Positions 43,930 to 55,939 of a stretch of DNA of 64,000 bases are shown here, in pieces; within the stretch, counting starts at the first letter, position 1; every line of letters starts with the position of its first letter. Made by a program: the position numbers and the translations under genes. The DNA is from Actinomyces sp. AC-20-1 (GTDB lineage Bacteria; Actinomycetota; Actinomycetes; Actinomycetales; Actinomycetaceae). The notes under the pieces were generated by a model. It was given only the letters and a program-made list of their open reading frames with translations. It searched no databases and was not told the DNA's origin. The stretch is from the NCBI RefSeq assembly GCF_023369555.1, contig NZ_JACJVC010000004.1:1-64000 (forward strand). The letters run 5' to 3'.

Positions 43930-45276
43930 ATGGTGACCCTCATGCCCTACCTTCCCTCCGCCGAGCCGCTCACCCGGCTGGCGGACGGCACGGTCAAGCA
44001 GGTCAGCCCCTTCACGGGGACCGAGGTGTGGACCGTGCCGGGTCGCGGCAACCGGCCGATCTCCCACCCCGTCGCCGAGGTCCATGACCTCGAGCCCCAC
44101 GAGCGCACGGGCACCTGCGCCTTCTGCTGCGAGCACTACCTGGAGACGCCGCCGGAGAAGGCCCGGGTCGTCGCCCGGGCGGACGGCTCCTTCGAGCGGG
44201 TCGATACCCTTCCGGCCTCGGCGCTCTTCGAGACGGTGGCGGCCTTCCGCCGGGTCCCGAACCTCTTCGAGATCCTGTCCTTCGACTACTGGCGGGCCAA
44301 CCACGGCTACGAGCTGCCGGACACGGCCCGCGAGCGCATGGAGGCCTACCTGGCCGAGCCGGCCGGGCACGAGCACGTGAGCCGGGTGGCCCGCACCAAG
44401 CTGCGGGCCTCGGGCCAGGACCCCGCCCGCTGGGAGGCGATGAGCGCGGCCGAGCAGCGCGCCTACGCGGCCCCCTTCTTCGCCTCCGGCCACGACGTCA
44501 TCATCGCCCGGCGCCACTACACGGACGACGCCGTCGACTCCTCGGGCCTGGCGAGCTCGGGCACGCTGAGCGTGGCGGAGCACCGGGCGTACACGCGCCT
44601 GGCGGTGCAGTCGGCGCAGAGCCTGTACGAGGCCAACCGGTGGGTGCGCTACGTGGCGGTCTTCCAGAACTGGCTGCGGCCGGCGGGGGCGTCCTTCGAC
44701 CACCTGCACAAGCAGCTCGTGGGGATCGACGAACGCGGGGTCTCCAGCCAGCTCGAGCTGCAGCGGGTGCGGGCGAACCCCAACATCTACAACGAGATGG
44801 GGGTGGACTACGCGGCCTACAACGGGCTGCTGGTGGCCTCGAACGAGCACGCGGTGGCCTTCGCGGGCTTCGGCCACCGCTACCCGACGCTGGAGGTGTA
44901 CTCGACGTCGCCGGTCTGCGAGCCGTGGCTCATGAGCCGCGAGGAGGTCGACGCCGTGTCCGACCTGCTGCACGCCCTGCACGCGGCGACGGGCGCGGGC
45001 GTGCCCTGCAACGAGGAGTGGCACCACCGGCCCATCGACGTCGACCAGTCGATGCCGTGGCACGTGACGCTCAAGTGGCGCGTGTCCACGCTGGCGGGCT
45101 TCGAGGGCGGCACGAAGATCTATCTCAACACGATCGACCCGTGGAGCCTGCGCGAGCGTGTGGTGGAGCGGCTGGAGGACCTGCGGGCGGACCGGCTCAT
45201 CGCGCCGATGGCGGTGGGTGAGGAGTGCCCGACGACGCCCAACCGGCTGCTGTACAACCCGGTCCTCACGCGCTGA
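43930..45276 (+). CDS. DUF4921 protein, GalT/HIT-superfamily-like
   Basis: A 448-residue protein resembling galactose-1-phosphate uridylyltransferase-like DUF4921 proteins. It has a CX2C-type start (TCAFCCEHYLETPPEKAR), FRRVPNLFEILSFDYW, FQNWLRPAGASFDHLHKQLVGID with the HxH-like catalytic segment (DHLHK), and EEWHHRPIDVDQSMPWHVTLKWRV near the end. It probably transfers nucleotidyl groups on a sugar phosphate, but its reaction is not known. The CACAATGT box 5 bp before the ATG suggests leaderless expression. Confidence 0.85.
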   Translation: MVTLMPYLPSAEPLTRLADGTVKQVSPFTGTEVWTVPGRGNRPISHPVAEVHDLEPHERTGTCAFCCEHYLETPPEKARVVARADGSFERVDTLPASALFETVAAFRRVPNLFEILSFDYWRANHGYELPDTARERMEAYLAEPAGHEHVSRVARTKLRASGQDPARWEAMSAAEQRAYAAPFFASGHDVIIARRHYTDDAVDSSGLASSGTLSVAEHRAYTRLAVQSAQSLYEANRWVRYVAVFQNWLRPAGASFDHLHKQLVGIDERGVSSQLELQRVRANPNIYNEMGVDYAAYNGLLVASNEHAVAFAGFGHRYPTLEVYSTSPVCEPWLMSREEVDAVSDLLHALHAATGAGVPCNEEWHHRPIDVDQSMPWHVTLKWRVSTLAGFEGGTKIYLNTIDPWSLRERVVERLEDLRADRLIAPMAVGEECPTTPNRLLYNPVLTR

Positions 45277-45283
45277 GTCCGCC

Positions 45284-46147
45284 TCACAGCCCCAGGGCGC
45301 TGCGCTCCTCGGCCCCGACCCAGCCGGGGCGGGCCTCCAGGGCCCGGAACCAGCGGGCCAGTGCCGGCCAGAAGGACAGCGAGGGCGCGTCCCCGCCCGG
45401 CATGTGGCGGCGGCCGCCGTAGGTGTAGGACTGCAGCGTGGTGAACAGGCGGATGTCGCTGCCGGTGGGCTGGTCGCCGCACAGGTACTGGCCGACGGCG
45501 ATGACGGCGGACAGCGGCGGGGCGTCCTGGATCGTCAGGCCCGCCTCCCGTGAGGCCTCCATGCGGGTGGCGCGGGCGAGGACCGTGTCGATGACGTCGA
45601 GGGCCACGAGCATCTCGTGGGCGGCGGCCTCGGCGACCTCCTCGTCCTCAGCGTGGGTGGCGACGCCGTAGGCCCGGTTGACGTGCTCGCCGACCCAGGC
45701 GTCCCAGGCGTCCGTCGAGTGGCGCCGGTCCAGGGGGTACAGGTCCGGGGAGCCGGCCGCGTGCAGGTCCCACCAGGCGGTGGCGAGGTCGAGGAGCAGG
45801 TCGCCGGAGTCGTCGCAGACCACCTGCCCGGTGGTGGTGTCCACGAGCGCGGGGATGGTGAGCGGGTCCTCGTGGCCGGGCGTGGCCGCGTAGACCTCGG
45901 CGAGCGAGCGCGCCCCGAGGACGGGGTCGGTGCCGGGCTCCCCGCTGGCGTCGGTCAGCTCCCAGTAGCCGTCCTCGCCGCGCCCGTAGCACCAGGAGAC
46001 GGGCAGGGCCTCGGTCAGGCCCAGCAGGCGGCGGGCGATGAGCACCCGGCGGCACCAGGGGCAGGAGCCGGAGGCGACGAGCCGGTAGCGGCCCGGCTCG
46101 GGGGTGAGGTCCCCGGCGGTGAAGCGGTGCGAGGTGGCGATGGCCAT
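45284..46147 (-). CDS. Glutathione S-transferase-like protein (Xi class/S-glutathionyl-hydroquinone reductase type)
   Basis: A 287-residue two-domain protein. The thioredoxin-fold N-terminus has the active-site SGSCPWCRRVLIARRLLGL. The all-helical C-terminal domain includes VNRAYGVATHAEDEEVAEAA and GDQPTGSDIRLFTTL (N-capping box and hydrophobic staple). The family reduces glutathionylated quinones and similar mixed thiols. Actinobacteria usually make mycothiol rather than glutathione, so the true thiol is uncertain. GGAGGAC before ATG 46147 sets the start. It lies on the same strand, 135 bp downstream of the thiol-linked ABC transporter operon. Confidence 0.87.
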   Translation of the reverse strand: MAIATSHRFTAGDLTPEPGRYRLVASGSCPWCRRVLIARRLLGLTEALPVSWCYGRGEDGYWELTDASGEPGTDPVLGARSLAEVYAATPGHEDPLTIPALVDTTTGQVVCDDSGDLLLDLATAWWDLHAAGSPDLYPLDRRHSTDAWDAWVGEHVNRAYGVATHAEDEEVAEAAAHEMLVALDVIDTVLARATRMEASREAGLTIQDAPPLSAVIAVGQYLCGDQPTGSDIRLFTTLQSYTYGGRRHMPGGDAPSLSFWPALARWFRALEARPGWVGAEERSALGL

Positions 46148-46282
46148 GATGTCCTCCAGGACTCGGCGGTGTCGCGGGGCCCCGGTGGGGCGCGTCTCCA
46201 TGGTGGGGCCTGGGCCGCGAGCGCGCCACGCTTTTCCCGTCAGGCGGAACCTCCCGCGGCGCCGGCTGCCCGGACCGGCCCC

Positions 46283-48031
46283 TCAGGCGGCCCGCCGCCG
46301 TGAGCGGCGGGCCGCCTGGATGTCGGGGTCCGGCACGGGCACGGCCGCCACGAGGCGGCGCGTGTAGTCCTGCTGCGGGCGGGCGAGCACCTGTTCGGTG
46401 ACCCCCTCCTCGACGACCCTGCCCTGCGACAGGACGAGGGTGCGGGCGGCCACGGAGTCGACGACGGCGAGGTCGTGGGAGACGAAGAGGCAGGCGAAGC
46501 CGAGCTCGTGCTGGAGAGCGCGCAGCAGGTCGAGGACGACCGCCTGGACGGAGACGTCCAGGGCGCTGGTCGGCTCGTCGGCGATGACCAGGCGGGGGTC
46601 CAGGGCCAGGGCGCGGGCGATGGCGACGCGCTGGCGCTGGCCCCCGCTCATCTCGTGCGGGTAGCGCTCGGACATCGAGGCGGGCAGGTGCACCGCGTCG
46701 AGCAGCTCGAGGACGCGCCGGCGGCGTACCGGGGCGCTGAGCCCGCCGTGGATGACGAGCGGCTCGGCGACCGAGGAGCCGACCGTGCGGCGCGGGTTGA
46801 GTGAGGAGGCCGGGTTCTGGTAGACGACGCCGGTGCTGCGCCGGGCCTCCAGGAGGTCCCTGCGCCCGGCGCCGGCGACCTCGACGCCGCCTACTCGCAC
46901 CGAGCCGGAGGCCACGGGCACGAGGCCCGTGAGGGCGGTGGCGATGGTCGACTTGCCGGAGCCGGACTCGCCGACGAGGCCGAGGACCTCCCCGGGCGCG
47001 ATGGTGAGGCTGACGTCGTGGACGGCGTGGACCCGGCGGCGCCCGTTGCGGTAGATGACGTTGAGGTCCGTGACCTCGACGACGTTGTCCACGCCCTCCT
47101 CGCGTGGCGCGCGCTCGCGGGCGACCGCCTCGAAGGGGTTCTCCTGGCGCAGGGAGTCCAGGCGCGGGACGGCGGTGAGGAGCTGGCGCGTGTAGGGGTG
47201 TCGGGGGCGGTGGAAGACCTCGCGGACCTCGCCGCGCTCGACGACCCGCCCGTGGCGCATGACGGCGACGTCGTCGGCCACGTCCGCGACCACGCCCATG
47301 TCGTGGGTGATGAGCAGGACGGCGACGCCCGTGCGGGTGAGCTCGCGCAGCAGGTCGAGGATCCCGGCCTGGACGGTGACGTCGAGGGCGGTGGTCGGCT
47401 CGTCGGCGATGAGGACCCGTGGCCCGCAGGCCATGGCCAGCGCGATGCAGGCGCGTTGGAGCTGGCCGCCGGAGAGCTGGTGCGGGTAGGAGCGGGCGAT
47501 GCGGGCCAGGTCCTCCCCCTCGCCCAGGCCGGCGCGTGAGAGCAGGCCGAGGACCCGGGGCGCCAGGTCCCGACGGCGCAGGCGACCCTCGTGGGCGCGC
47601 ACCGCCTCGCCGACCTGGGAGGCGATGGTCTCGAGCGGGTCGAGGGCGGTGGTCGGCTCCTGGAAGACGGTGCCGACGAGGCGCCCGCGCACGTCGTCGA
47701 GAACGCGGCGCGAGGCGCCCACGAGCTCGGTGGCCCTGGACCCGTCCTGGGCCAGCAGGGCGGAGCCGGAGACGGTGGCGGTCGGGGGGAGGAGGCCCAG
47801 CGCCCCCATGGCGGTGACCGACTTGCCCGAGCCGGACTCGCCGACGAGGGCGAGGACGCGTCCGGGCAGGAGGTCGAGGTCGACGTCGGCGCTGGCGGGG
47901 CGGGGGCTTCCCACGAAGGACACGCCGAGGCCGCGCAGGCTGAGGGCGGGACCCGTCGGGCCGCCCAGCGCCTGGGTCGTCACCTGGCCGGCCGGGCCGT
48001 GGGGGTGGGTCCGGGCCTCCTCCCCGCCCAT
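46283..48031 (-). CDS. Double ABC-domain ATPase of an Opp/Dpp-family importer (GsiA-like)
   Basis: A 582-residue fusion of two complete ABC domains of the oligopeptide type. Domain 1: Walker A GESGSGKS, signature [14 protein letters not shown], Walker [15 protein letters not shown] and [13 protein letters not shown]. Domain 2: [36 protein letters not shown] and [11 protein letters not shown]. Each domain ends with the family's [12 protein letters not shown] or [12 protein letters not shown] element. The single-chain DppD-DppF arrangement is that of GsiA, the glutathione importer ATPase, and of some peptide and nickel systems. ATG 48031 overlaps the stop of the binding-protein gene (TGATG). 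Confidence 0.95.
46284..46318 (-). terminator. Hairpin at the end of the double ATPase gene
   Basis: A perfect 15-bp stem (46284-46298 with 46304-46318) with the loop CGTGA overlaps the last ten codons of the gene and its stop. It has no T-tract. It may end the transporter transcript and partly uncouple the downstream glutathione-transferase-like gene. Confidence 0.5.
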
Positions 48032-49722
48032 CAGGCGCTCACCCCGACGACGAGGTAGTTGGGGTACGCCGGGTAGGACTCGACGAAGAAGTCCGTCACG
48101 CCCGAGCCCGCCAGGAAGCTGTTGCGGCGGTTGGCCAGCGGCACCACAGGCGCCTGGGCGGCGACCCGCTGGTCGATGGCGGCCCACTTGGCCCCGGCCT
48201 CGGCGGGGTCGAGCGTCGCGATGGCCTCCTCGATGGCGGCGTCGACCTCGGGGTCGGAGTAGCGAGAGATGTTGTAGCCGCCGCCCCCGATCTCCGAGGA
48301 GGCGAACAGCGGCTGGATGTAGGCGCTGGCGGAGGGGAAGTCGGCGTTCCACGAGCCGATGGCGAGGTCGTAGGTGGAGCCGTCGCCCTGGGTGGCGCGC
48401 TCGGAGACCACCTCGGACTCCTGCGGGTCGATGGTCACCCTCAGGCCCGCCTCGGTCAGGGCCTGCTGGACCGCCTGGGCGACCGCCTGGGTGGCGGTGT
48501 CGTTGGCGGCCAGGAGGATGAGCTCGCCGACCTCCTTGCCCGCCAGGGTGGCGGCCACGGCCTCGACATCGGTCGGGTACAGGTCGTACTCGACACGCCC
48601 GGGGATGCCGGGGGCGATGTAGGTCGTGGCCGCGGAGGCCCCGAGCTGGCCTCCCAGGGCGGAGACGACCGCGGTCTTGTCCACGGCCCGGGAGATCGCC
48701 TGGCGGACCTCGACGTCGGTGACACGCTCGGTGTTGATCGCCAGGTACTGCAGCGGGCCGCCCTCGGCGGGGGTCGCCAGGCGCTCGGCGGCCTCGGCGT
48801 TGCCGGAGACCTGGGCGAGCTGGGCGGCGGCGACACGGTCCGCGCAGAAGGCGTGGGCGTCGTCGCCGGCGGAGGCGATAATGCGCTGGATGGAGGTCGA
48901 CTCGTCCTGGCCGAGCTCGAAGACGATGGTGTCGGGCAGGGCGAGGCGGACATCGTCGGTGTCGGCGGACCAGTGCTCGTTGCGCACGAGGGTGGCGGAG
49001 ACGCCGGTGGAGTACTGCTCGACCCGGTAGGGGCCGGAGGCGATGGGCGTGCGCGCGTAGGTGGCGACGTCGTCCTTGTCCTCGGGCACCGGGGAGAAGG
49101 CGGGCTGGGCGACGATCCACGGCCAGTCGCCGTAGGTCTGCCTGAGGTGGAAGACGATCGTCTTGTCGTCCGGGGTCTCGATGGAGTCGAGGTGGGCGCC
49201 GTCGAAGGGGCCCTCGTAGCCCTCGGTGCCGGCCAGGAGGGTCTTGTGGTAGCCCAGGCCCCCGGCGAGGGCGGGAGCGAAGGAGCGCTCGAGGCCGTAC
49301 TTGACGTGCGCGGAGGTGATGGCCGTGCCGTCCTCGAAGAAGAGCCCGTCCTTGAGGGTGTAGGTCCAGGACAGGCCGTCCTCGGAGACGGTGCCGGTGT
49401 CGGTGGCGAGGTCCGCGACGACCTCGACCTCGGACCCCTCGCTCAGGGACCAGGTGGTGAGCCGGCGGTGGACGAGGACGAGGGAGGTCACGGGCATCGA
49501 CTGGCTCTTGGCGGGGTCCCAGTTGATGTCGGTGCCAGAGGTGAGGATGCCCAGGCGGCCACCGGGGGAGACCTCGGCGCTGCCCGCGCTGCCGGAGGTG
49601 GAGGAGGACCCGGTGGAGCTGGCCCCGCAGGCGGCGAGCGTGAGGGCGAGGGCGGAAAGCCCTGCGCCGGCGAGGAGGCTGCGGCGGCTGGGGTTCAGGG
49701 TGCGTGCCATGGTGGTGCTCAT
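48031..49722 (-). CDS. Peptide/thiol ABC transporter substrate-binding lipoprotein (SBP family 5)
   Basis: A 563-residue extracellular binding protein. The signal peptide ends in a lipobox (LTLAACG), with a preceding basic RRSLL. The mature part has SQSMPVTSLVLVHRRLTTW, GLSWTYTLKDGLFFEDG, the IASGPYRVEQY motif, VRQAISRAVDK and the C-terminal GSWNADFPSASAYIQPLFAS typical of Dpp/Opp binding proteins. A second ATG at 49710 has AGGA about 12 bp upstream and could be the real start. It lies between the permease DppB-like gene and the double ATPase gene. Confidence 0.92.
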   Translation of the reverse strand: MSTTMARTLNPSRRSLLAGAGLSALALTLAACGASSTGSSSTSGSAGSAEVSPGGRLGILTSGTDINWDPAKSQSMPVTSLVLVHRRLTTWSLSEGSEVEVVADLATDTGTVSEDGLSWTYTLKDGLFFEDGTAITSAHVKYGLERSFAPALAGGLGYHKTLLAGTEGYEGPFDGAHLDSIETPDDKTIVFHLRQTYGDWPWIVAQPAFSPVPEDKDDVATYARTPIASGPYRVEQYSTGVSATLVRNEHWSADTDDVRLALPDTIVFELGQDESTSIQRIIASAGDDAHAFCADRVAAAQLAQVSGNAEAAERLATPAEGGPLQYLAINTERVTDVEVRQAISRAVDKTAVVSALGGQLGASAATTYIAPGIPGRVEYDLYPTDVEAVAATLAGKEVGELILLAANDTATQAVAQAVQQALTEAGLRVTIDPQESEVVSERATQGDGSTYDLAIGSWNADFPSASAYIQPLFASSEIGGGGYNISRYSDPEVDAAIEEAIATLDPAEAGAKWAAIDQRVAAQAPVVPLANRRNSFLAGSGVTDFFVESYPAYPNYLVVGVSA

Positions 49723-49820: not shown

Positions 49821-50807
49821 CTAGACCCGCGGGTCGATGACGGCCGCGAAGGCGTCGACGACGAGGTTGGCGATGACGACGAAGGAGGCTGACACGATCG
49901 TCACGCCCATGACGACGGGCACGTCCACGGTGCCGACGGCGTCCATGAGCAGGGCGCCCAGGCCCTGCATGGAGAAGACGCGTTCGGTGATGACCGCGCC
50001 GCCGAGCATCCCGCCCAGGTCGAGGGCGAAGTAGGTCACCACCGGCAGCGAGATGTTGCGCATGACGTGGCGCCCGATGACGCGCCGCTCGCTCAGGCCC
50101 ACGGCCCGGCCGGTGCGCACGTAGTCCTCACCGAGGTTCTCGAGCACCTCGCCGCGCACCATCCGGGCGTAGACGGCGGCGGAGATGAGCGCGAGGACGG
50201 TCCACGGCAGGACAAGGTGCCACAGCCAGCCCACCGGGTCCCGGGTGAGCGGGACGTAGCCGGAGGTCGGCACCAGGCCGAGGGTGAAGCCGAGCAGGAG
50301 GATGCCCAGCAGGCCCAGCAGGTAGGAGGGGGCGGAGACCCCCAGGACCGTGCCGGTCATGATGACGCGGTCGAGCCTCGTGCCACGGCGCAGGGCGGAG
50401 ACCATGCCCGCGACGACTCCCATGAGCAGCCACAGGACGGCCGCGCCCACCGCGATGGAGGCGGTGACGGGCAGGCGGGTGGCGATGAGCTCGGTCACCG
50501 GCGTCGACAGGCGGAAGGAGTAGCCCAGGCAGGGGGCGGAGCAGACGATCGCCCCCGTCCCGGAACCGAAGGTCCGGCCCGCGACGATGCCGGTGACGTA
50601 GTGCCAGAACTGCGCGTACCAGGGGTCGTCGTAGCCCATGAGCTCGCGCGCCCGCTCGAGGTTCGCGGGCGTGCAGGGCTTGCCGCAGGCCAGGCTGGCC
50701 GGGTCCGAGGGCCACAGGGAGAAGATCGCGAAGGTGACGAAGGCGACCACGAGCAGGACGAGGAGGGTCTGGACGAGCCGGGAGGCGAGGAAGCGCAGGC
50801 GGTTCAT
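49821..50807 (-). CDS. ABC transporter permease (DppB/GsiC type)
   Basis: A 328-residue permease: LASRLVQTLLVLLVVAFVTFAIFSLWPSDPA at the start (family N-terminus), a cysteine-containing external loop (SLACGKPCTP, CSAPCLGY), six membrane segments, ARMVRGEVLENLGEDYVRTGRAVGLSERRVIGRHVMRN (EAA loop) and the ending LVVDAFAAVIDPRV. The ATG overlaps the stop of the DppC-like gene by 4 bp. Confidence 0.93.
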   Translation of the reverse strand: MNRLRFLASRLVQTLLVLLVVAFVTFAIFSLWPSDPASLACGKPCTPANLERARELMGYDDPWYAQFWHYVTGIVAGRTFGSGTGAIVCSAPCLGYSFRLSTPVTELIATRLPVTASIAVGAAVLWLLMGVVAGMVSALRRGTRLDRVIMTGTVLGVSAPSYLLGLLGILLLGFTLGLVPTSGYVPLTRDPVGWLWHLVLPWTVLALISAAVYARMVRGEVLENLGEDYVRTGRAVGLSERRVIGRHVMRNISLPVVTYFALDLGGMLGGAVITERVFSMQGLGALLMDAVGTVDVPVVMGVTIVSASFVVIANLVVDAFAAVIDPRV

Positions 50808-51814
50808 CGGTGCTCACCGGTCCTGGGGTCGAGGGCGTCGCGCAGGCCGTCACCGAAGAGGTTGAAGGCGAGGGTGACGAGGAAGAGGGCGGCGCCGGGG
50901 AAGAGCAGGTACCAGGGGTCCGTGCTCACCCAGGTGACGGCGTTGCCGATGGAGCGGCCCCAGGAGGGTGTCGGTGGGGCGACGCCGACGCCGAGGAAGG
51001 ACAGGGCGGCCTCGGCGGTGATCTTGCCGGGGATGGAGACCGTGGTGAAGACGATGATGGTGGCGACGAGGTTGGGCAGGACCTGCGTGAGCAGGACGTG
51101 CGGCTCGCTGGCGCCCATGGCCCGGGAGGCGCCGACGAAGGTGCGTGCGCGCACGGCCAGGGTGCGGCTGCGCAGGACGCGTGCCGTCGACGGCCAGCCC
51201 AGGACCCCGATGATGACGATCATGACGAGCACGCGCGGGGCGGTGGCCGGGATGAGCGCGGAGACGGCGATCATGAAGATGAGGTGGGGGAAGCCGAGGG
51301 TGACGTCGGTGACGCGCGAGACGAGGGCGTCCCACCAGCCGCCGAAGTACCCCGCGCTCACGCCCAGGGCGATGGCGATGACCATCGACAGCAGGGTCGC
51401 GCCCATGCCGATGGAGAAGGAGGTGCGCGTGCCCTCGACGACGATGGCAAACAGGTCGCGGCCGGTCTGCGGCTCGACGCCGAAGGGGTGGGCGGCGCTC
51501 ACGCCCCCGAGGGGTCCCAGCGGCAGTCCGAGGTCGTCGAGGAGGTCGAGGTTGTAGCTGTAGGCGTCCACCCCGACCGCCCGCGTGAGGAGCGGGGCGA
51601 GGAGTGCGACGAGCGTCGTGAGCACGACGATGACGGCGCCGGCGACAGCGCCCCGGTCGCGGCCGAGGCGGTGCGCGACGGCGCGCCAGCCGCTGGGGCG
51701 GCCCGCAGCGCGGTCGGCGTCGTCGGCAGCCGGGTGGGCGGCGACGGCCGGGGAGACGTCGGCGGCAGGCTCAGCGGTCGCAGGGGTACGGGGGTCCTGT
51801 ACGGACGGGGCCAC
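50804..51814 (-). CDS. ABC transporter permease (DppC/GsiD type)
   Basis: A 336-residue permease with a long alanine/proline-rich N-terminal tail (1-50), then AGAVIVVLTTLVALLAPL, SAAHPFGVEPQTGRDLFAIVVEGTRTS, VGASRAMGASEPHVLLTQVLPNL (EAA loop) and LVTLAFNLFGDGLRDALDPR at the end. GTG start with GAGGTG 9 bp upstream. It is the first structural gene of the operon. The poly-cysteine leader peptide lies about 70 bp upstream. Confidence 0.93.
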   Translation of the reverse strand: MAPSVQDPRTPATAEPAADVSPAVAAHPAADDADRAAGRPSGWRAVAHRLGRDRGAVAGAVIVVLTTLVALLAPLLTRAVGVDAYSYNLDLLDDLGLPLGPLGGVSAAHPFGVEPQTGRDLFAIVVEGTRTSFSIGMGATLLSMVIAIALGVSAGYFGGWWDALVSRVTDVTLGFPHLIFMIAVSALIPATAPRVLVMIVIIGVLGWPSTARVLRSRTLAVRARTFVGASRAMGASEPHVLLTQVLPNLVATIIVFTTVSIPGKITAEAALSFLGVGVAPPTPSWGRSIGNAVTWVSTDPWYLLFPGAALFLVTLAFNLFGDGLRDALDPRTGEHR

Positions 51815-51837
51815 AACGGCACCTCACGGGGGTCGGT

Positions 51838-51855
51838 GAGCGCGGGAGCGCGCTC
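51838..51855 (-). promoter_or_regulatory. Second hairpin in the leader, before the first permease gene
   Basis: On the minus strand GAGCGCG pairs with CGCGCTC around CTCC (perfect 7-bp stem). It lies between the poly-cysteine leader and the Shine-Dalgarno of the permease gene (CACCTC on the plus strand at 51820-51825) and could act as attenuator or sequester translation. Confidence 0.4.
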
Positions 51856-51874
51856 GAGGGCGAATGGGTGTGGA

Positions 51875-51892
51875 GCTGTCGTCAACGACAGC
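51875..51892 (-). promoter_or_regulatory. Hairpin covering the last cysteine codons and stop of the leader peptide
   Basis: GCTGTC and GACAGC (minus strand) form a 6-bp stem with a 6-nt loop that includes the leader stop codon. A ribosome stalled on the cysteine codons would open it, which is the logic expected of cysteine-responsive attenuation. Confidence 0.45.
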
Positions 51893-51917
51893 AGCAGCAA
51901 CACATTCGCTTGGTCAT
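51882..51917 (-). CDS. Poly-cysteine leader peptide
   Basis: This 11-residue open frame, MTKRMCCCCCR then TGA, has five consecutive cysteine codons (TGT TGC TGC TGC TGT). Short poly-cysteine upstream ORFs are known in actinobacteria (described in mycobacteria) as cysteine-responsive attenuators of the genes behind them. When cysteine is scarce the ribosome stalls and the downstream operon is expressed. It lies 67 bp before the first gene of the Opp/Dpp operon and in the same orientation. No clear Shine-Dalgarno precedes the ATG (GAGAGG is about 10 bp away). It is too short for gene finders. Confidence 0.72.
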   Translation of the reverse strand: MTKRMCCCCCR

Positions 51918-51981
51918 GCGACCGGGACCTCTCGACGTGGGTGGTGGGCGGCCGTGCTCGGGCGCCCGTCGGCTGGTCCCG

Positions 51982-52011
51982 GACGCTAGCAAGGTGCCGA
52001 CCGACAGGTCG
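51982..52011 (-). promoter_or_regulatory. Possible promoter and operator for the leader/transporter operon
   Basis: On the minus strand a TCGACC -35-like box (52006-52011) and a TAGCGT -10-like box (51982-51987) are 18 bp apart. The -35 overlaps a short palindrome CGACC-GACA-GGTCG (51997-52010) that could bind a regulator. The predicted start of transcription is about 60 bp before the leader peptide. Assignment is by eye. Confidence 0.35.
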
Positions 52012-52055
52012 ATACCCTCCCGTGATCTGAGACGAGCCTCTCAGTGGCCCCGTCC

Positions 52056-52793
52056 TCACACACCGAGGAAGCGGGCGACCTCCTCGTCTCCCGGGTGCGC
52101 CCGCAGCGCCCCCATGGTGCCCAGGGCGCGCAGCCGTCCGGCGACCATGACCCCCACCCGGTCCGCGACGGCCTCGGCCTCGGCGTGGTCGTGCGTGACG
52201 TAGAGGGCGGTCATGCCCTCGGCCCGCAGGATCCTCGCCAGGTCCTGGGACAGGGACTCGCGCAGGGCCCGGTCCAGGGCGGACAGGGGCTCGTCGAGCA
52301 GGAGGAGGCGGGGTCGCGGGGCCAGGGAGCGGGCCAGGGCCACGCGCTGCGCCTGCCCGCCGGACAGGGTGGTCACGGCCCGGTGCCCGTAGCCGGGCAG
52401 GCCGACGAGTGCGAGGACCTCGTCCACGCGGGCCTCGCGCTCGGCGCGCGGCAGACCCGCCAGGCCGTAGGCGACGTTGCCGGCGACGTCCCGGAAGGGG
52501 AAGAGCTGGCCGTCCTGGAAGACCATCCCGAAGCCGCGCCTGTGGACGGGGGTGGCGACGACGTCCCGCCCCGCCCAGCGGACCGCGCCTGCGGCAACGG
52601 GCTCGAGCCCGGCGACGGCGCGCAGGAGGGAGGACTTGCCGCAGCCGGAGGGGCCGAGGAGGGCGAGGACCTCGCCGTCGGCCACGGTCAGGCTCACGGC
52701 GTCGACGGCGGTGACGGGTGCGCTCCGGCTCGCGCCGCGGCCCGTGGCCGGGTAGACGACGCTGAGGTCCGCGACCTCGAGGGCGGTGCTCAT
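52056..52793 (-). CDS. thiQ: Thiamine-type ABC transporter ATP-binding protein
   Basis: A 245-residue ATPase. Walker A is GPSGCGKSS, followed by the Q-loop VFQDGQLFPFRDVAGNVAYGL, signature LSGGQAQRVALARSL, Walker B LLLLDEPLSALDRA and VTHDHAEAEAVADRV. ATG 52793 follows AAGGAGAG and overlaps the permease stop by 4 bp; the longer frame upstream would lie inside the permease gene. It powers import of thiamine, thiamine phosphate or a precursor; the ThiQ assignment rests on the TPP riboswitch and the ThiB-like binding protein in the same operon. Confidence 0.9.
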   Translation of the reverse strand: MSTALEVADLSVVYPATGRGASRSAPVTAVDAVSLTVADGEVLALLGPSGCGKSSLLRAVAGLEPVAAGAVRWAGRDVVATPVHRRGFGMVFQDGQLFPFRDVAGNVAYGLAGLPRAEREARVDEVLALVGLPGYGHRAVTTLSGGQAQRVALARSLAPRPRLLLLDEPLSALDRALRESLSQDLARILRAEGMTALYVTHDHAEAEAVADRVGVMVAGRLRALGTMGALRAHPGDEEVARFLGV

Positions 52794-54619
52794 GCGCTCT
52801 CCTTCTCCTGCGTCCCCCGCGAGCTCGAGGGTTCTGTCGCGACGTCGAGGGTGACGCCCTCGAACTCGGCACGTAACCCTCGAGCTCGCGCCCGCAGGCG
52901 GTACGGGCGGTGTGGGCGGGCGGCGGGGCGGGATGCCCGCAGGCGCGCGGTCTGGGCCCACTCGCAGGCCAGCATGAGCGCCGCCGTCCCGGCCGCCAGG
53001 ACCACGCCGGCGGCCAGCCCCATCCCCTGGTTCTGGGCCCCGGGCGAGCCGATGAGCCGGTAGAGGACGACCGGCAGCGTCTGGGTAGCGGGCCGCACGA
53101 GGAAGGACGTGGCCCCGAACTCCCCCAGGCTCGTGGCCAGGGCGAAGCCCGCGGCGAGCCCGCCGGCGCGCAGCAGGTGCGGGCCGTCCACGCTGGCGAG
53201 CACCCGCCCGGGCCCGGCGCCGAGCGTGGCGGCCGCCTCACGCTGGCGCGGGTCGATGGCCCGCAGCGCCGGCAGGAGGGTGCGCACCACGAGGGGCACG
53301 GCGACAACCGCCTGGGCGAGCGGAAGCACCCACCACGAGCGGGTCAGTGCCAGGGGCGGGCGGGTGAGGGTGATGAGGAAGCCGAATCCCACGGTGACGG
53401 CGCTGACCCCCAGCGGCAACATGAAGGCCGAGTCGAGGGCGCGCACACCGCGCCGCAGCCAGGGCGATCGGGGACGGCGCGAGACGACCAGGGCCACCGC
53501 CACCCCGATGACCAGCGAGATCGCGGCGGCGACGACAGCGACCCTCAGGGAGCTGGCGGCCGCCTCCCAGACGGTGACGGTCAGGGCGTTGCGCCCGCCG
53601 GTGGTGCCCAGGTCCGTGTAGTTCGCGAGCGTCCAGCGCCCGGCGCGCCGCAGCGAGCGGGCGAGCAGCACCGCCATGGGGCCGATGAGCAGCCCGGTGA
53701 CGACGGCCAGGGTGAGCAGCAGGGCCGGGGCGTCGCCGCGGCGCAGGGGGGTGGCGGGCACGTCCAGATGCAGGCGCAGGGCGGCCTGGTGGGCGGCGCG
53801 GGCCCGCTCACTGACCCACAGGCAGGCGGCGATGACGGCCAGCTGGAGCACGCTGAGGACGGCTGCGGCGCGCAGGTCGAGGTACTGGGCGGTGAGCACG
53901 TAGATCTCGGTCTCGATGGTGCCGATGCCGGGGCCGCCCAGGACGAGGACGACGCCGTAGGCGGTCGCGCAGAACAGGAAGGCGAGGGAGGCGGCGGAGG
54001 CGATGGCGGGGGCCAGGCTCGGCAGCGTCACGGTGAGGAAGGCCCGCCAGGGGGAGGCTCCCAGGGTGCGGGCGGCCTCGACGGCGCGCGGGTCGAGACG
54101 CGACCACATGGTGCCGACGGTGCGCACCACGAGCCCGTAGTTGAAGAAGGTGAGGGCGGCGACGACGGTCACCGTGGAGCCGGCGAGCGCGCCGTCGAAC
54201 CAACCGCCCAGCGGGCCGCCGGTGGTGACCATGGCGTGGAAGGCGACGCCGACGACGACGCTGGGCAGCACGAAGGGCACGGTGACCAGGGCGCGCAGCA
54301 GGTCGCGTCCGGGGAAGCGGCGCCGGTAGAGCACGAGCGCGCCGGGAACGCCCAGGACGACGCAGACGGCGGTGGCGGCGGTGGCCTGCAGGAGGGTCTG
54401 GCGGATGATCCGCCACGTGCGCTCGCGGGTGAGGACCTCCCCGAAGCCGGACAGGTCGAGCGTCCCGTCGGGGGCCAGGCCCCGGGCGACGAGGGTGGCG
54501 ACGGGCCAGGCGAACAGGACGCCGAGGAAGACGAGGGGCAGGCCGACGGCGAGCGCCCAGCCCGCGCACTCACCCGCCGTCGGCCCCGGGCCCCTGACCC
54601 GCCCAGCCCGTGCGCTCAC
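52790..54619 (-). CDS. thiP: Thiamine-type ABC transporter permease (two fused half-permeases)
   Basis: A 609-residue permease with about twelve membrane segments. Each half has its own EAA loop: EAARTLGASPWRAFLTVTLP (first) and REAAATLGAGPGRVLASVDGP (second), as in ThiP and Fe3+ permeases. GTG at 54619 overlaps the binding-protein stop by 4 bp. The last about 30 codons run through a long palindrome (52818-52890) and encode a charged tail (ending EPSSSRGTQEKESA) not seen in relatives. The tail therefore seems to be donated by an inserted repeat. Confidence 0.9.
   Translation of the reverse strand: MSARAGRVRGPGPTAGECAGWALAVGLPLVFLGVLFAWPVATLVARGLAPDGTLDLSGFGEVLTRERTWRIIRQTLLQATAATAVCVVLGVPGALVLYRRRFPGRDLLRALVTVPFVLPSVVVGVAFHAMVTTGGPLGGWFDGALAGSTVTVVAALTFFNYGLVVRTVGTMWSRLDPRAVEAARTLGASPWRAFLTVTLPSLAPAIASAASLAFLFCATAYGVVLVLGGPGIGTIETEIYVLTAQYLDLRAAAVLSVLQLAVIAACLWVSERARAAHQAALRLHLDVPATPLRRGDAPALLLTLAVVTGLLIGPMAVLLARSLRRAGRWTLANYTDLGTTGGRNALTVTVWEAAASSLRVAVVAAAISLVIGVAVALVVSRRPRSPWLRRGVRALDSAFMLPLGVSAVTVGFGFLITLTRPPLALTRSWWVLPLAQAVVAVPLVVRTLLPALRAIDPRQREAAATLGAGPGRVLASVDGPHLLRAGGLAAGFALATSLGEFGATSFLVRPATQTLPVVLYRLIGSPGAQNQGMGLAAGVVLAAGTAALMLACEWAQTARLRASRPAARPHRPYRLRARARGLRAEFEGVTLDVATEPSSSRGTQEKESA
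52818..52890. repeat. Palindrome inside the 3' end of the thiamine permease gene
   Basis: Perfect 16-bp arms CGCGAGCTCGAGGGTT (52818-52833) and complement (52875-52890) enclose 41 bp, which contain a second inverted pair CGAGGG/CCCTCG. The element differs from the repeat at 20429/26442, although both contain GAGCTCGAG. It lies within the last 30 codons of the permease gene. Confidence 0.7.
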
Positions 54620-55704
54620 GCGCCGACGGCCTCGGTCCAGGCGGCGAGCCAGGCCTCGCGGTTGGCGTCGATGTCCGCCGGGTCGACGACGACCGGGGTC
54701 CGGCTCACGGCGCCGAAGGCCTCGATCTCCTCGCTGAGCGCGGCCCGGGTGTTGACCGGGTACATGTACATGTTGTCCGGGATGGACTCCTGGACCTCGA
54801 CGGACAGCATCCACTCGATGAAGGCCGTGGCTCCCTCGGGGTTGGCGGCCCCGGCGAGAACCCCGGCGTACTCGACCTGGCGGGTGGCGGTGGCCGGGAC
54901 GGAGGCGGTGGTCGACGTCGTGCCGTCCTCGCTGACGGTGGCGGCCGGGGAGGAGGAGTAGGAGACGACGATCGGGTAGGTGCCACCCTCGCCGCTGCCG
55001 GAGAAGTCCGTGTAGTAGGCGTCGCTCCACCCCTCGTCGATCTTGGCGCCGTTGGCCACGAGGTCCTTCCAGTACTGCTGCCAGGCGCCCTCGCCGAAGT
55101 GGCCAATGGTGGCGACGAGGAAGGCGAGGCCGGTGGAGGAGGAGGTGGGGTTGATGAGGACGCTCAGGCCCTTGTGCTCCGGCTTGGTGAGGTCCTCGAA
55201 GCTGGTGGGCTCGGCCAGGCCGTGCTCGGTGAACCAGGTGGTGTCCGTGTTGAGGCAGACCTCGCCGAAGTCGACGGGCACGAGCGCGGGGGTGTCCGCG
55301 ACGAGGTACTGCTCGACGTCGACGCCGTCGGGCAGGGTGACCGTGACGCCGGTGTCGATGACGCCCTCGCCCAGGGCGCGGGAGGCGAAGGTGTTGTCGA
55401 TGCCGTAGACGGCGTCGCCCAGGGGGGCGTCCTTGGTCAGGACGAGCTTGTTGACCAGCTCGCCGGCGTCCCCAGCGGGCACGAGCTCGAGGGTGAGGCC
55501 GGTGGAGGACTCGAAGGCGGCGATGAGCTCGTCGGGCACGTGGAAGGAGTCGTGGGTGAGGACGGCGACGGTGGAGGCGCCGGCCTGGGTGTCGCCGTCG
55601 GCGCCCCTGGACCCGCAGGCGGCGAGGGTGAGGCCGACGGCGCCGAGGGCGGCCCCGGTGAGCAGCGCGCGGCGGGCGATCGGGCGGTTCGGGAGGGTGG
55701 TCAT
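54616..55704 (-). CDS. thiB: Thiamine-type ABC transporter substrate-binding lipoprotein (ThiB/TbpA-like)
   Basis: A 362-residue extracellular binding protein. Signal peptide ARRALLTGAALGAVGLTLAACG with a lipobox cysteine. The mature part has STVAVLTHDSFHVPDELIAAFE, APLGDAVYGIDNTFASRAL, PVDFGEVCLNTD and GLAFLVATIGHFGEGAWQQYWKDL, all typical of TbpA-like proteins. AGGAG precedes the ATG. It is the first gene of the thiamine operon, directly behind a TPP riboswitch. Confidence 0.92.
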   Translation of the reverse strand: MTTLPNRPIARRALLTGAALGAVGLTLAACGSRGADGDTQAGASTVAVLTHDSFHVPDELIAAFESSTGLTLELVPAGDAGELVNKLVLTKDAPLGDAVYGIDNTFASRALGEGVIDTGVTVTLPDGVDVEQYLVADTPALVPVDFGEVCLNTDTTWFTEHGLAEPTSFEDLTKPEHKGLSVLINPTSSSTGLAFLVATIGHFGEGAWQQYWKDLVANGAKIDEGWSDAYYTDFSGSGEGGTYPIVVSYSSSPAATVSEDGTTSTTASVPATATRQVEYAGVLAGAANPEGATAFIEWMLSVEVQESIPDNMYMYPVNTRAALSEEIEAFGAVSRTPVVVDPADIDANREAWLAAWTEAVGA

Positions 55705-55761
55705 GGTGGTCTCCTGGACGTGTGTCAGGAGGGCCTGCGCGGCCCGGGGGGCGCGCAGGGA

Positions 55762-55853
55762 GATGCTCGACTTCCTTCGCCGGTGCTAACCGGAGCAGGT
55801 TCGAGGGTCTGCGGGCTTACCGCACTCTCAGCGCCGGTCGGCGCTCCCCTGTC
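55762..55853 (-). promoter_or_regulatory. TPP (thiamine pyrophosphate) riboswitch
   Basis: On the minus strand the leader reads AGGGGAGC, then GCTGAGAGTGC and ACCCTCGAACCTG, followed by CCGGTTAGCACCGGCGAAGGAAG. These are the invariant elements of the THI-box aptamer, in order (CTGAGA, ACC..GAACCTG, CGxAGGxAA). It lies about 60 bp before the ThiB-like gene and would switch off the importer when TPP binds. The arms pair as expected: GCGCCGACCGGCGC forms the variable P3-side hairpin. Confidence 0.95.
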
Positions 55854-55939
55854 GTGTGGCAGCAGGCTACCCGGTTGTCCGGGACCTGTTCACCCTCACG
55901 GGGGATGACGACGGCGACCGCGTTCGTGAGACTGTGCCC

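Follow-up and report, generated by a model that had tools for sequence, protein, structure and literature searches.

A Shine-Dalgarno-led cysteine-codon leader in a covarying stem before an Opp/Dpp-type importer of Actinomyces: a predicted ribosome-read sensor of cysteine supply

Five adjacent cysteine codons in a frame of 11 residues, placed just before an importer operon of Actinomyces sp. AC-20-1, raise the question of whether such a frame is a chance occurrence or a leader through which the supply of cysteine is read. An examination of this frame, of its counterparts in related genomes and of the RNA in which it is embedded suggests an answer, which is developed below.

A cysteine-codon frame before an importer operon

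The frame (minus strand: ATG ACC AAG CGA ATG TGT TGC TGC TGC TGT CGT TGA) has its own Shine-Dalgarno sequence and ends at a distance of 67 bp from the GTG start codon (51814) of an OppC-like gene; an earlier note on this DNA had given its reading, orientation and spacing exactly. In the window, by which we mean the whole stretch of 64,000 nucleotides that was analysed, the motif ATGTGYTGYTGYTGYTGYCGYTGA with up to three mismatches has a single site, and it has none in 100 dinucleotide shuffles of the window. On both strands the leader is the sole open reading frame of up to 14 codons with at least three cysteines. When 10 Mb of single strand was simulated with a Markov model, frames of this size with at least five cysteines never occurred and those with at least four occurred six times. 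Runs of at least four TGY codons are not enriched as such in the 2.7-Mb genome, because 11 overlapping matches, amounting to nine distinct runs, compare with 67 matches for the reversed-pattern control. Two of the nine runs are held by tiny frames, defined by a start at most five codons and a stop at most six codons away, and both of these frames lie 5' of ABC importers. The cysteine-codon leader is thus not a chance occurrence.

The operon that follows has the order oppC-oppB-substrate-binding protein-oppDF according to its Pfam domains, which agree with the Opp/Dpp-type importer that had been claimed 3' of the leader, and is itself followed by a glutathione-S-transferase-like gene (Table 1). 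The GTG start of the OppC-type permease aligns with the starts of its relatives, and the nearest named records that carry this operon are from Actinomyces. For the binding protein the nearest solved chain is 2wok, clavulanic acid biosynthesis oligopeptide binding protein 2 (E 2e-64). Among NCBIfam models the fused ATPase, with its two domains scored jointly, passes the cut-offs of a dipeptide subfamily, NikD and NikE; for the permeases and the binding protein of the window no model reaches its cut-off, and neither this importer nor the second one described below receives a cysteine-specific name. The glutathione-S-transferase-like gene comes after the importer in all eight named Actinomyces loci and in none of five Propionibacteriaceae loci, within the stretch examined, and may hint at the thiol chemistry of the imported compound. 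Upstream of the leader there is an ABC operon of the thiamine type, with a TPP riboswitch about 4 kb from the leader. This riboswitch is the one match to Rfam 15 in the window at gathering score, at which the leader element has no match, and a search of positions 51750-52060 with E up to 1 also returned none.

Table 1. Features of the locus in window coordinates (class 1: leaders before oppC orthologues)
Feature	Position	Strand	Remarks
TPP riboswitch	55755-55860	-	before thiamine-type ABC importer (54616-55704 and on)
Palindrome TGAGAGGCTCGTCTCA, candidate operator	52028..52043	-	52 nt upstream of extended -10
Extended -10 promoter-like element TGCTAGCGT	51983..51991	-	consensus resemblance only
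Shine-Dalgarno GAGAGG of leader frame	51928..51933	-	10 nt 5' of leader ATG
Leader frame MTKRMCCCCCR-stop	51917..51882	-	Cys-rich leader in 24/24 Actinomyces orthologues
Outer stem 5' arm GCGAATG (Arg-Met codons before Cys run)	51903..51909	-	pairs with 51866-51860
Inner hairpin GCTGTCG-TTGA-CGACAGC	51892..51875	-	pairing in 98.4% of cells, 27 distinct sequences
Outer stem 3' arm CATTCGC	51860..51866	-	partner of 51909-51903
Hairpin 2 GAGCGCG-CTCC-CGCGCTC	51855..51838	-	class 1 only
Shine-Dalgarno GTGAGG of first operon gene	51822..51827	-	GTGAGG in 22/24 Actinomyces class-1 loci
OppC/DppC-type permease, GTG start 51814	50804..51814	-	BPD_transp_1 E 1.4e-26, OppC_N
OppB/DppB-type permease	49821..50807	-	BPD_transp_1_N E 2.2e-36, BPD_transp_1 E 3.2e-36
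Family 5 substrate-binding protein	48031..49722	-	SBP_bac_5 E 1.1e-62
Fused OppD-OppF ATP-binding protein	46283..48031	-	two ABC_tran, two oligo_HPY stretches
Glutathione-S-transferase-like protein, 3' of operon	45284..46201	-	GST_N_2, GST_C_2

Recurrence before two importers and cysK

An orthologue of oppC (E <1e-140) is present in 24 of the 49 genomes of the genus that were searched, and a leader with two to five cysteine codons occupies the equivalent position in every one of them (five cysteines in five genomes, four in nine, three in nine and two in one). These leaders take the forms MCCCCCR, MCCCCR, MCCCYCR, MCCCRCR, MWSCCCR, MRCRCCR, MRCRRCR, MCGCTCR and MCCRRCL, with one GTG form, and in the alignment a purine-rich, Shine-Dalgarno-like stretch precedes their start. 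Orthologues in Propionibacteriaceae, whose best segment is 72-80% identical, carry leaders of the form MCCCCR, MCCCR or MCCCH, with three or four cysteines, in four of five cases; the fifth, from an Acidipropionibacterium MAG, has kept the stem and a single cysteine (MFVRMRICSSR). The conserved runs that the earlier note had proposed to look for before orthologous transporters are hence found in both groups. Its refuting condition, that close relatives keep the operon while lacking the run, is not seen in any of the 24 Actinomyces orthologues; partial counter-cases are the one-cysteine Acidipropionibacterium MAG and, at the second importer described below, four of 41 operons with no leader found and two with just two cysteines.

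At the six nearest oppC relatives from other genera of Actinomycetaceae (50-60% identical) a polycysteine leader was sought and not found; two of these loci have unrelated two-cysteine frames more than 300 nt upstream. It is likewise absent from 29 oppC relatives in the class (45-64% identical; 29 of the 43 matches listed), three of which have chance cysteine frames about 300-430 nt upstream. The gene neighborhoods around the Propionibacteriaceae orthologues are unlike those in Actinomyces, and this, together with the lack of the leader at the oppC relatives in other Actinomycetaceae genera, suggests that operon and leader moved jointly between Actinomyces and Propionibacteriaceae. A scan of the five Propionibacteriaceae genomes for ATG-(TGY)3 gave 26 sites, seven of which have a stop within 14 codons: four are the importer leaders, two lie inside an apparent dnaK and one is MCCCSCSWVHDI. 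The last of these is a short frame without a Shine-Dalgarno sequence, 48 nt before an oxidoreductase-like gene (L300 around 1500, genome of L065), and its genome is that of the Acidipropionibacterium MAG whose importer leader lost the cysteine run.

A covariance model built from 30 leaders (24 of class 1, five of class 2 and one from Acidipropionibacterium) matched 42 of the 49 Actinomyces genomes, with five reverse-strand echoes not being counted. It marks a second site of the element, here termed class 2, 5' of an ATPase-substrate-binding protein-permease-permease operon of the polar amino acid type (GlnQ/SBP_bac_3). The binding protein of this operon is present in 41 of the 49 genomes, and an MCCC-type leader in 35 of these 41, including the genome under study, in which it was read by eye as VRSRMCCCCCH (G000:C16). 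Two further operons (L223, L224) have arginine-rich leaders with two cysteines that end in TRRCRGCRLHR or TRRCRGCRLHH, and four of the 41 have no leader in the about 330 nt searched. The set of class-2 loci used below for promoter, codon and ribosome-site counts leaves out L034, L039, L046, L047 and L049, which duplicate longer loci at identical sites, and L205. At the start of the class-2 gene (L186, L188, L176 and many others) a sequence resembling GAGACGAGGTNCTCGTG forms a 5-bp hairpin, ACGAG/CUCGU, over the Shine-Dalgarno sequence and the start codon.

A model search across the family matched 42 of 213 genomes, all of them Actinomyces, under stricter filters that lose weak matches. On 394 genomes of the class, model R1 gave eight weak matches outside the genome under study (E 1e-4 to 7e-4), and inspection of all eight found no Shine-Dalgarno-led cysteine leader; one of them, L279, has the frame VSRGCCRCR without a Shine-Dalgarno sequence. 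We take these eight as chance matches, by which measure E-values of the model near 1e-4 are optimistic. A third target, the Shine-Dalgarno-led frame MPMGMHCRCCR that one genome carries 5' of a sugar ABC permease (L224 around 1105, the same site as L205), was set aside, as its E of 3e-4 is at the chance level of this class control.

Leaders of a related kind precede cysK. In the genome under study a Shine-Dalgarno-led frame, MTAASVMRVMSASCGRCL followed by a stop, lies at about 1811-1867 of L311 (G000:C2, upstream of cysK at 44569), and 18 of 20 further Actinomyces genomes carry cysteine-rich frames there, MTASNVMCVMSFCCCQCR and MANGVMCAMSLSCCQCR being other Shine-Dalgarno-led examples. Such frames were thus found 5' of cysK in 19 of the 21 genomes read, against three of 21 in the reverse-strand control, which yielded unrelated frames. 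The filter was loose, asking for a Shine-Dalgarno-like sequence, 6-30 codons and two cysteines close together near the end, and the 20 further regions were hand-picked among the 47 genomes, out of 49, in which the cysK search gave a match above the family cut-off. As cysK is a gene of cysteine synthesis, a cysteine-rich leader before it provides the strongest tie of the cysteine codons to cysteine.

The promoter regions share elements of their own. A TGnTAnnnT match lies within 260 nt upstream in 23 of the 24 Actinomyces class-1 loci and in 34 of 35 class-2 loci, as a likeness to consensus only, and class-1 leaders start about 45-110 nt 3' of this promoter-like element. A palindrome, TGAGA-N6-TCTCA, matches at 10 or more of 12 positions in 16 of the 24 Actinomyces class-1 promoters, 15 of which have the extended -10 match 51-52 nt downstream. 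Its strict form, TGAGANNNNSGTCTCA, has a single site in the genome under study, at the class-1 promoter, and over the 49 genomes it has 19 distinct sites, ten at class-1 promoters and nine elsewhere, compared to one for the reversed-pattern control. Both the conservation of the palindrome and the uniqueness of its strict form in this genome make it likely that the class-1 promoter is under a second, protein-based control.

The base-paired stem around the cysteine codons

A 7-bp outer stem, which the earlier note overlooked, encloses the cysteine codons together with an inner hairpin that contains the last cysteine codon and the arginine codon and has the stop in its loop; the inner hairpin and hairpin 2, both described in that note, are where it had placed them. 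The 57-nt fold has a minimum free energy of -24 kcal/mol (z -5.2), and none of 200 shuffles was equally low. Across species the outer stem takes the compensatory forms GCGAATG/CATTCGC, GCGGATG/CATCCGC and GTGGATG/TATCCAC, and the arginine codon in its 5' arm becomes a tryptophan codon where the pairing partner changes. In an alignment of 27 distinct sequences 98.7% of the pair cells are standard and three pairs show two-sided change, and none of 500 shuffles matches the stem in paired fraction, two-sided changes or covariation score. The number of pair types is unexceptional, being reached by 121 of the 500. In this alignment (A3) the ends of L007 were set by hand and L065, L071, L072 and L073 were left out.

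When arms were swapped between loci, the own arm was best or tied in 30 of 33, 8 of 11 and 10 of 13 distinct regions, and a score of 16 was reached by 41 of 64 own arms, with 23 below it, as against 2.5% of shuffles; these alignments and choices of arms are biased towards the structure. Folding of single sequences gives the outer stem a mean probability of 0.83 in class 1 and 0.69 in class 2. Values below 0.2 occur in four of 29 class-1 loci, one of them (L007) owing to a misassigned arm, and in 10 of 35 class-2 loci, among them the class-2 leader of the genome under study, which folds into a different stem. As for hairpin 2, each of its five consensus pairs is present in 22-23 of the 24 class-1 sequences and it is absent in L024; it was looked for in class-2 leaders and not seen there.

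Reading of the cysteine codons and relation to known systems

The occurrence of a like leader before a second importer and of cysteine-rich leaders before cysK points to cysteine sensing. We therefore propose, with a probability of about 0.8 on sequence grounds, that the element is a cysteine-sensing upstream frame by which the importer would be controlled through Cys-tRNA charging as read by the ribosome. A ribosome would initiate at the Shine-Dalgarno-led ATG and translate the cysteine run inside the base-paired stem. With charged Cys-tRNA plentiful it would reach the stop and depart, allowing the stem to refold; with charged Cys-tRNA scarce it would stall on the cysteine codons and hold the stem open, and this state would result in more importer expression. 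That the leader is translated, that ribosomes stall on it upon cysteine limitation and that stalling raises expression is what we infer, and the direction of control, with more importer when cysteine is short, is drawn by analogy. On this proposal the leader-bearing genes are probably switched on by cysteine shortage.

The codons themselves bear on whether translation is the relevant process. Across 64 leaders cysteine makes up 263 of the 305 residues between the methionine and the last residue, with TGT (170) and TGC (93) alternating, TGG occurring four times and TGA never. Some positions of the run are replaced by arginine, serine, tryptophan or histidine, and there are one to six cysteines per leader. 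It is conceivable that an RNA structure or a protein-binding site is the conserved entity and the cysteine run a by-product of repeats in the stem, given a stem that is both conserved and covarying and a model that gives weak scores to the reverse strand as well. This is nevertheless very improbable: neither consensus helix includes codons 1-3 of the run, and yet the run is composed as described, leader length differs by whole codons, a Shine-Dalgarno-like sequence (under a permissive pattern) precedes 64 of 64 leaders, and the run persists in four of five Propionibacteriaceae, whose stems are weaker or different. Even less credible is an action of the peptide in trans, for example as a small cysteine-rich product that senses metal or redox state. 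Cysteine-rich peptides are able to bind metals, and the importer ATPase does pass the two nickel-type cut-offs, NikD and NikE, but the residues outside the run drift, with the change from arginine to tryptophan tracking the stem pairing, the cysteine count varies over the range just given, and nothing suggests that a peptide of about 9-12 residues is a folded product. Judged from these comparisons, both the codons and the fold of the sensor proposed here are under selection. The methionine before the run is conserved as strongly as cysteine: ATG (once GTG, in L007) precedes the variable run in 59 of 59 Actinomyces leaders, the adjoining stem positions covary, and in class 2 its constancy is partly by construction, as the extraction required ATG. 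This constant methionine may reflect methionine sensing, a backup start codon or pairing.

How a stalled ribosome would act on the importer was approached by placing a ribosome footprint on the cysteine codons in folding models of 29 class-1 and 35 class-2 loci. In these models stalling opens the leader's own stem, with pairing of the 3' arm dropping from 0.92 to 0.41 in class 1 and from 0.84 to 0.39 in class 2. The earlier note had envisaged a stall-dependent switch with hairpin 2 at the ribosome site, and translational attenuation of this type, in which the ribosome-binding site is masked by the leader hairpin together with hairpin 2 until stalling on cysteine codons exposes it, would be in keeping with the two conserved hairpins of class 1, with the mechanism reported for mycobacterial leaders and with a Shine-Dalgarno sequence that is partly paired in the models (mean 0.76 in class 1). 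It appears unlikely, as the models give no consistent change at that site: the opening energy changes on average by 0.5 kcal/mol in class 1 and 0.2 in class 2, falling by more than 1 kcal/mol in 7 of 29 and 7 of 35 loci and rising by more than 1 kcal/mol in 3 of 29 and 10 of 35; pairing of the importer's Shine-Dalgarno sequence stays constant (0.76 to 0.78 in class 1, 0.61 to 0.63 in class 2); the freed 3' arm finds no consistent common partner; and hairpin 2 is not seen in class 2. A simple release of the ribosome-binding site accordingly finds no support in the modelled opening energies and pairing probabilities of the 64 loci.

Between leader stop and gene start no terminator U run is seen, the longest T run being 1-4 in 64 of 64 loci, and the lack of any T run above four speaks against an intrinsic terminator and hence against a classical attenuator of that kind. 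This lack of T runs fits with Rho-dependent or coupling attenuation, in which a ribosome on the cysteine codons near the RNA polymerase would keep Rho off a C-rich stretch where transcription would otherwise end early. In class 1 the mean composition between the leader stop and the gene start is 44% C and 23% G, and the 60 nt before the start average the 93rd percentile of C-minus-G relative to the window; in class 2, however, this bias is weaker (71st percentile), rut sites are not identifiable with confidence, and stalling may leave more of the downstream RNA exposed. The Rho route, which has already been suggested for actinobacterial cys leaders (PMC1262725), is thus a possible but tentative completion of the cysteine-sensing scheme. 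Going further, one might imagine a Shine-Dalgarno-led, stem-embedded cysteine-codon sensor common to Actinomyces and Propionibacteriaceae, probably moved along with its importer, in which relatives tie two unrelated importers and cysK to Cys-tRNA charging and the switch consists of nothing more than the stalled ribosome opening the stem, with neither terminator hairpin nor masking of the ribosome-binding site; we regard this combination as doubtful.

The closest counterparts are found in mycobacteria. Canestrari and coworkers are said to have described, in 2020, polycysteine-encoding leaderless short frames before cysteine-linked operons, several per genome, which reportedly act by masking of the ribosome-binding site that is relieved by stalling on the cysteine codons. 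The Actinomyces element resembles these in having the cysteine run near the stop, in lying co-oriented upstream of its operon and in preceding several operons per genome. Unlike them, it is Shine-Dalgarno-led with a promoter-like element tens of nucleotides upstream, as judged from sequence alone, its cysteine codons are embedded in a covarying stem whose inner loop holds the stop, importers make up two of its three target operons, and masking of the ribosome-binding site is not seen in the folding models. It is therefore distinct from the leaderless mycobacterial family, being Shine-Dalgarno-led, stem-embedded and importer-targeting. The control exerted by the mycobacterial leaders is described as translational (PMC13236596).

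Seliverstov et al. (2005) predicted leaders with cysteine runs for the cys operons of Mycobacterium and P. acnes and for cbs of B. longum (PMC1262725). As described there, these share with the Actinomyces element the run near the stop, the actinobacterial hosts and the lack of an intrinsic terminator; they precede biosynthesis genes and have no conserved terminator hairpin, in contrast to the covarying stem and importer targets found here. The uORFC-8-2 motif before cysS of Rhodobacterales is a cysteine-codon upstream frame that likewise, comparing by description, has its cysteine codons in a conserved first stem; it differs by its intrinsic terminator, which has a U run, and its two tandem cysteine codons, as opposed to no U run and up to six cysteines, and in preceding cysS rather than, as in class 1, an importer operon (PMC8632094). 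The metL leader of Streptomyces lividans, before the metNIQ importer, is similar, by its description, in its importer target, its relation to a sulfur amino acid, its actinobacterial host and its lack of a clear terminator, but is leaderless, has 29 residues and mixes methionine and cysteine (PMC8079986). Among the best-ranked matches listed from the open-access literature searched, there is no report of cysteine leaders in Actinomyces.

Leaders with cysteine runs are thus known already in mycobacteria and predicted in P. acnes and B. longum; what sets the present element apart is the importer targets, the Shine-Dalgarno-led start and the covarying stem. With its cysteine codons in such a stem, a terminator lacking and the ribosome-binding site not unmasked in the models, the element offers a clean case for how a lone stalled ribosome alters downstream expression. 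Polycysteine control would be widened by it beyond mycobacteria and from biosynthesis to uptake. For Actinomyces, a genus that includes common oral bacteria, the sequences predict a ribosome-read cysteine regulon, and the two uncharacterised importers within it are suspected of carrying cysteine, cystine or cysteine-containing peptides.
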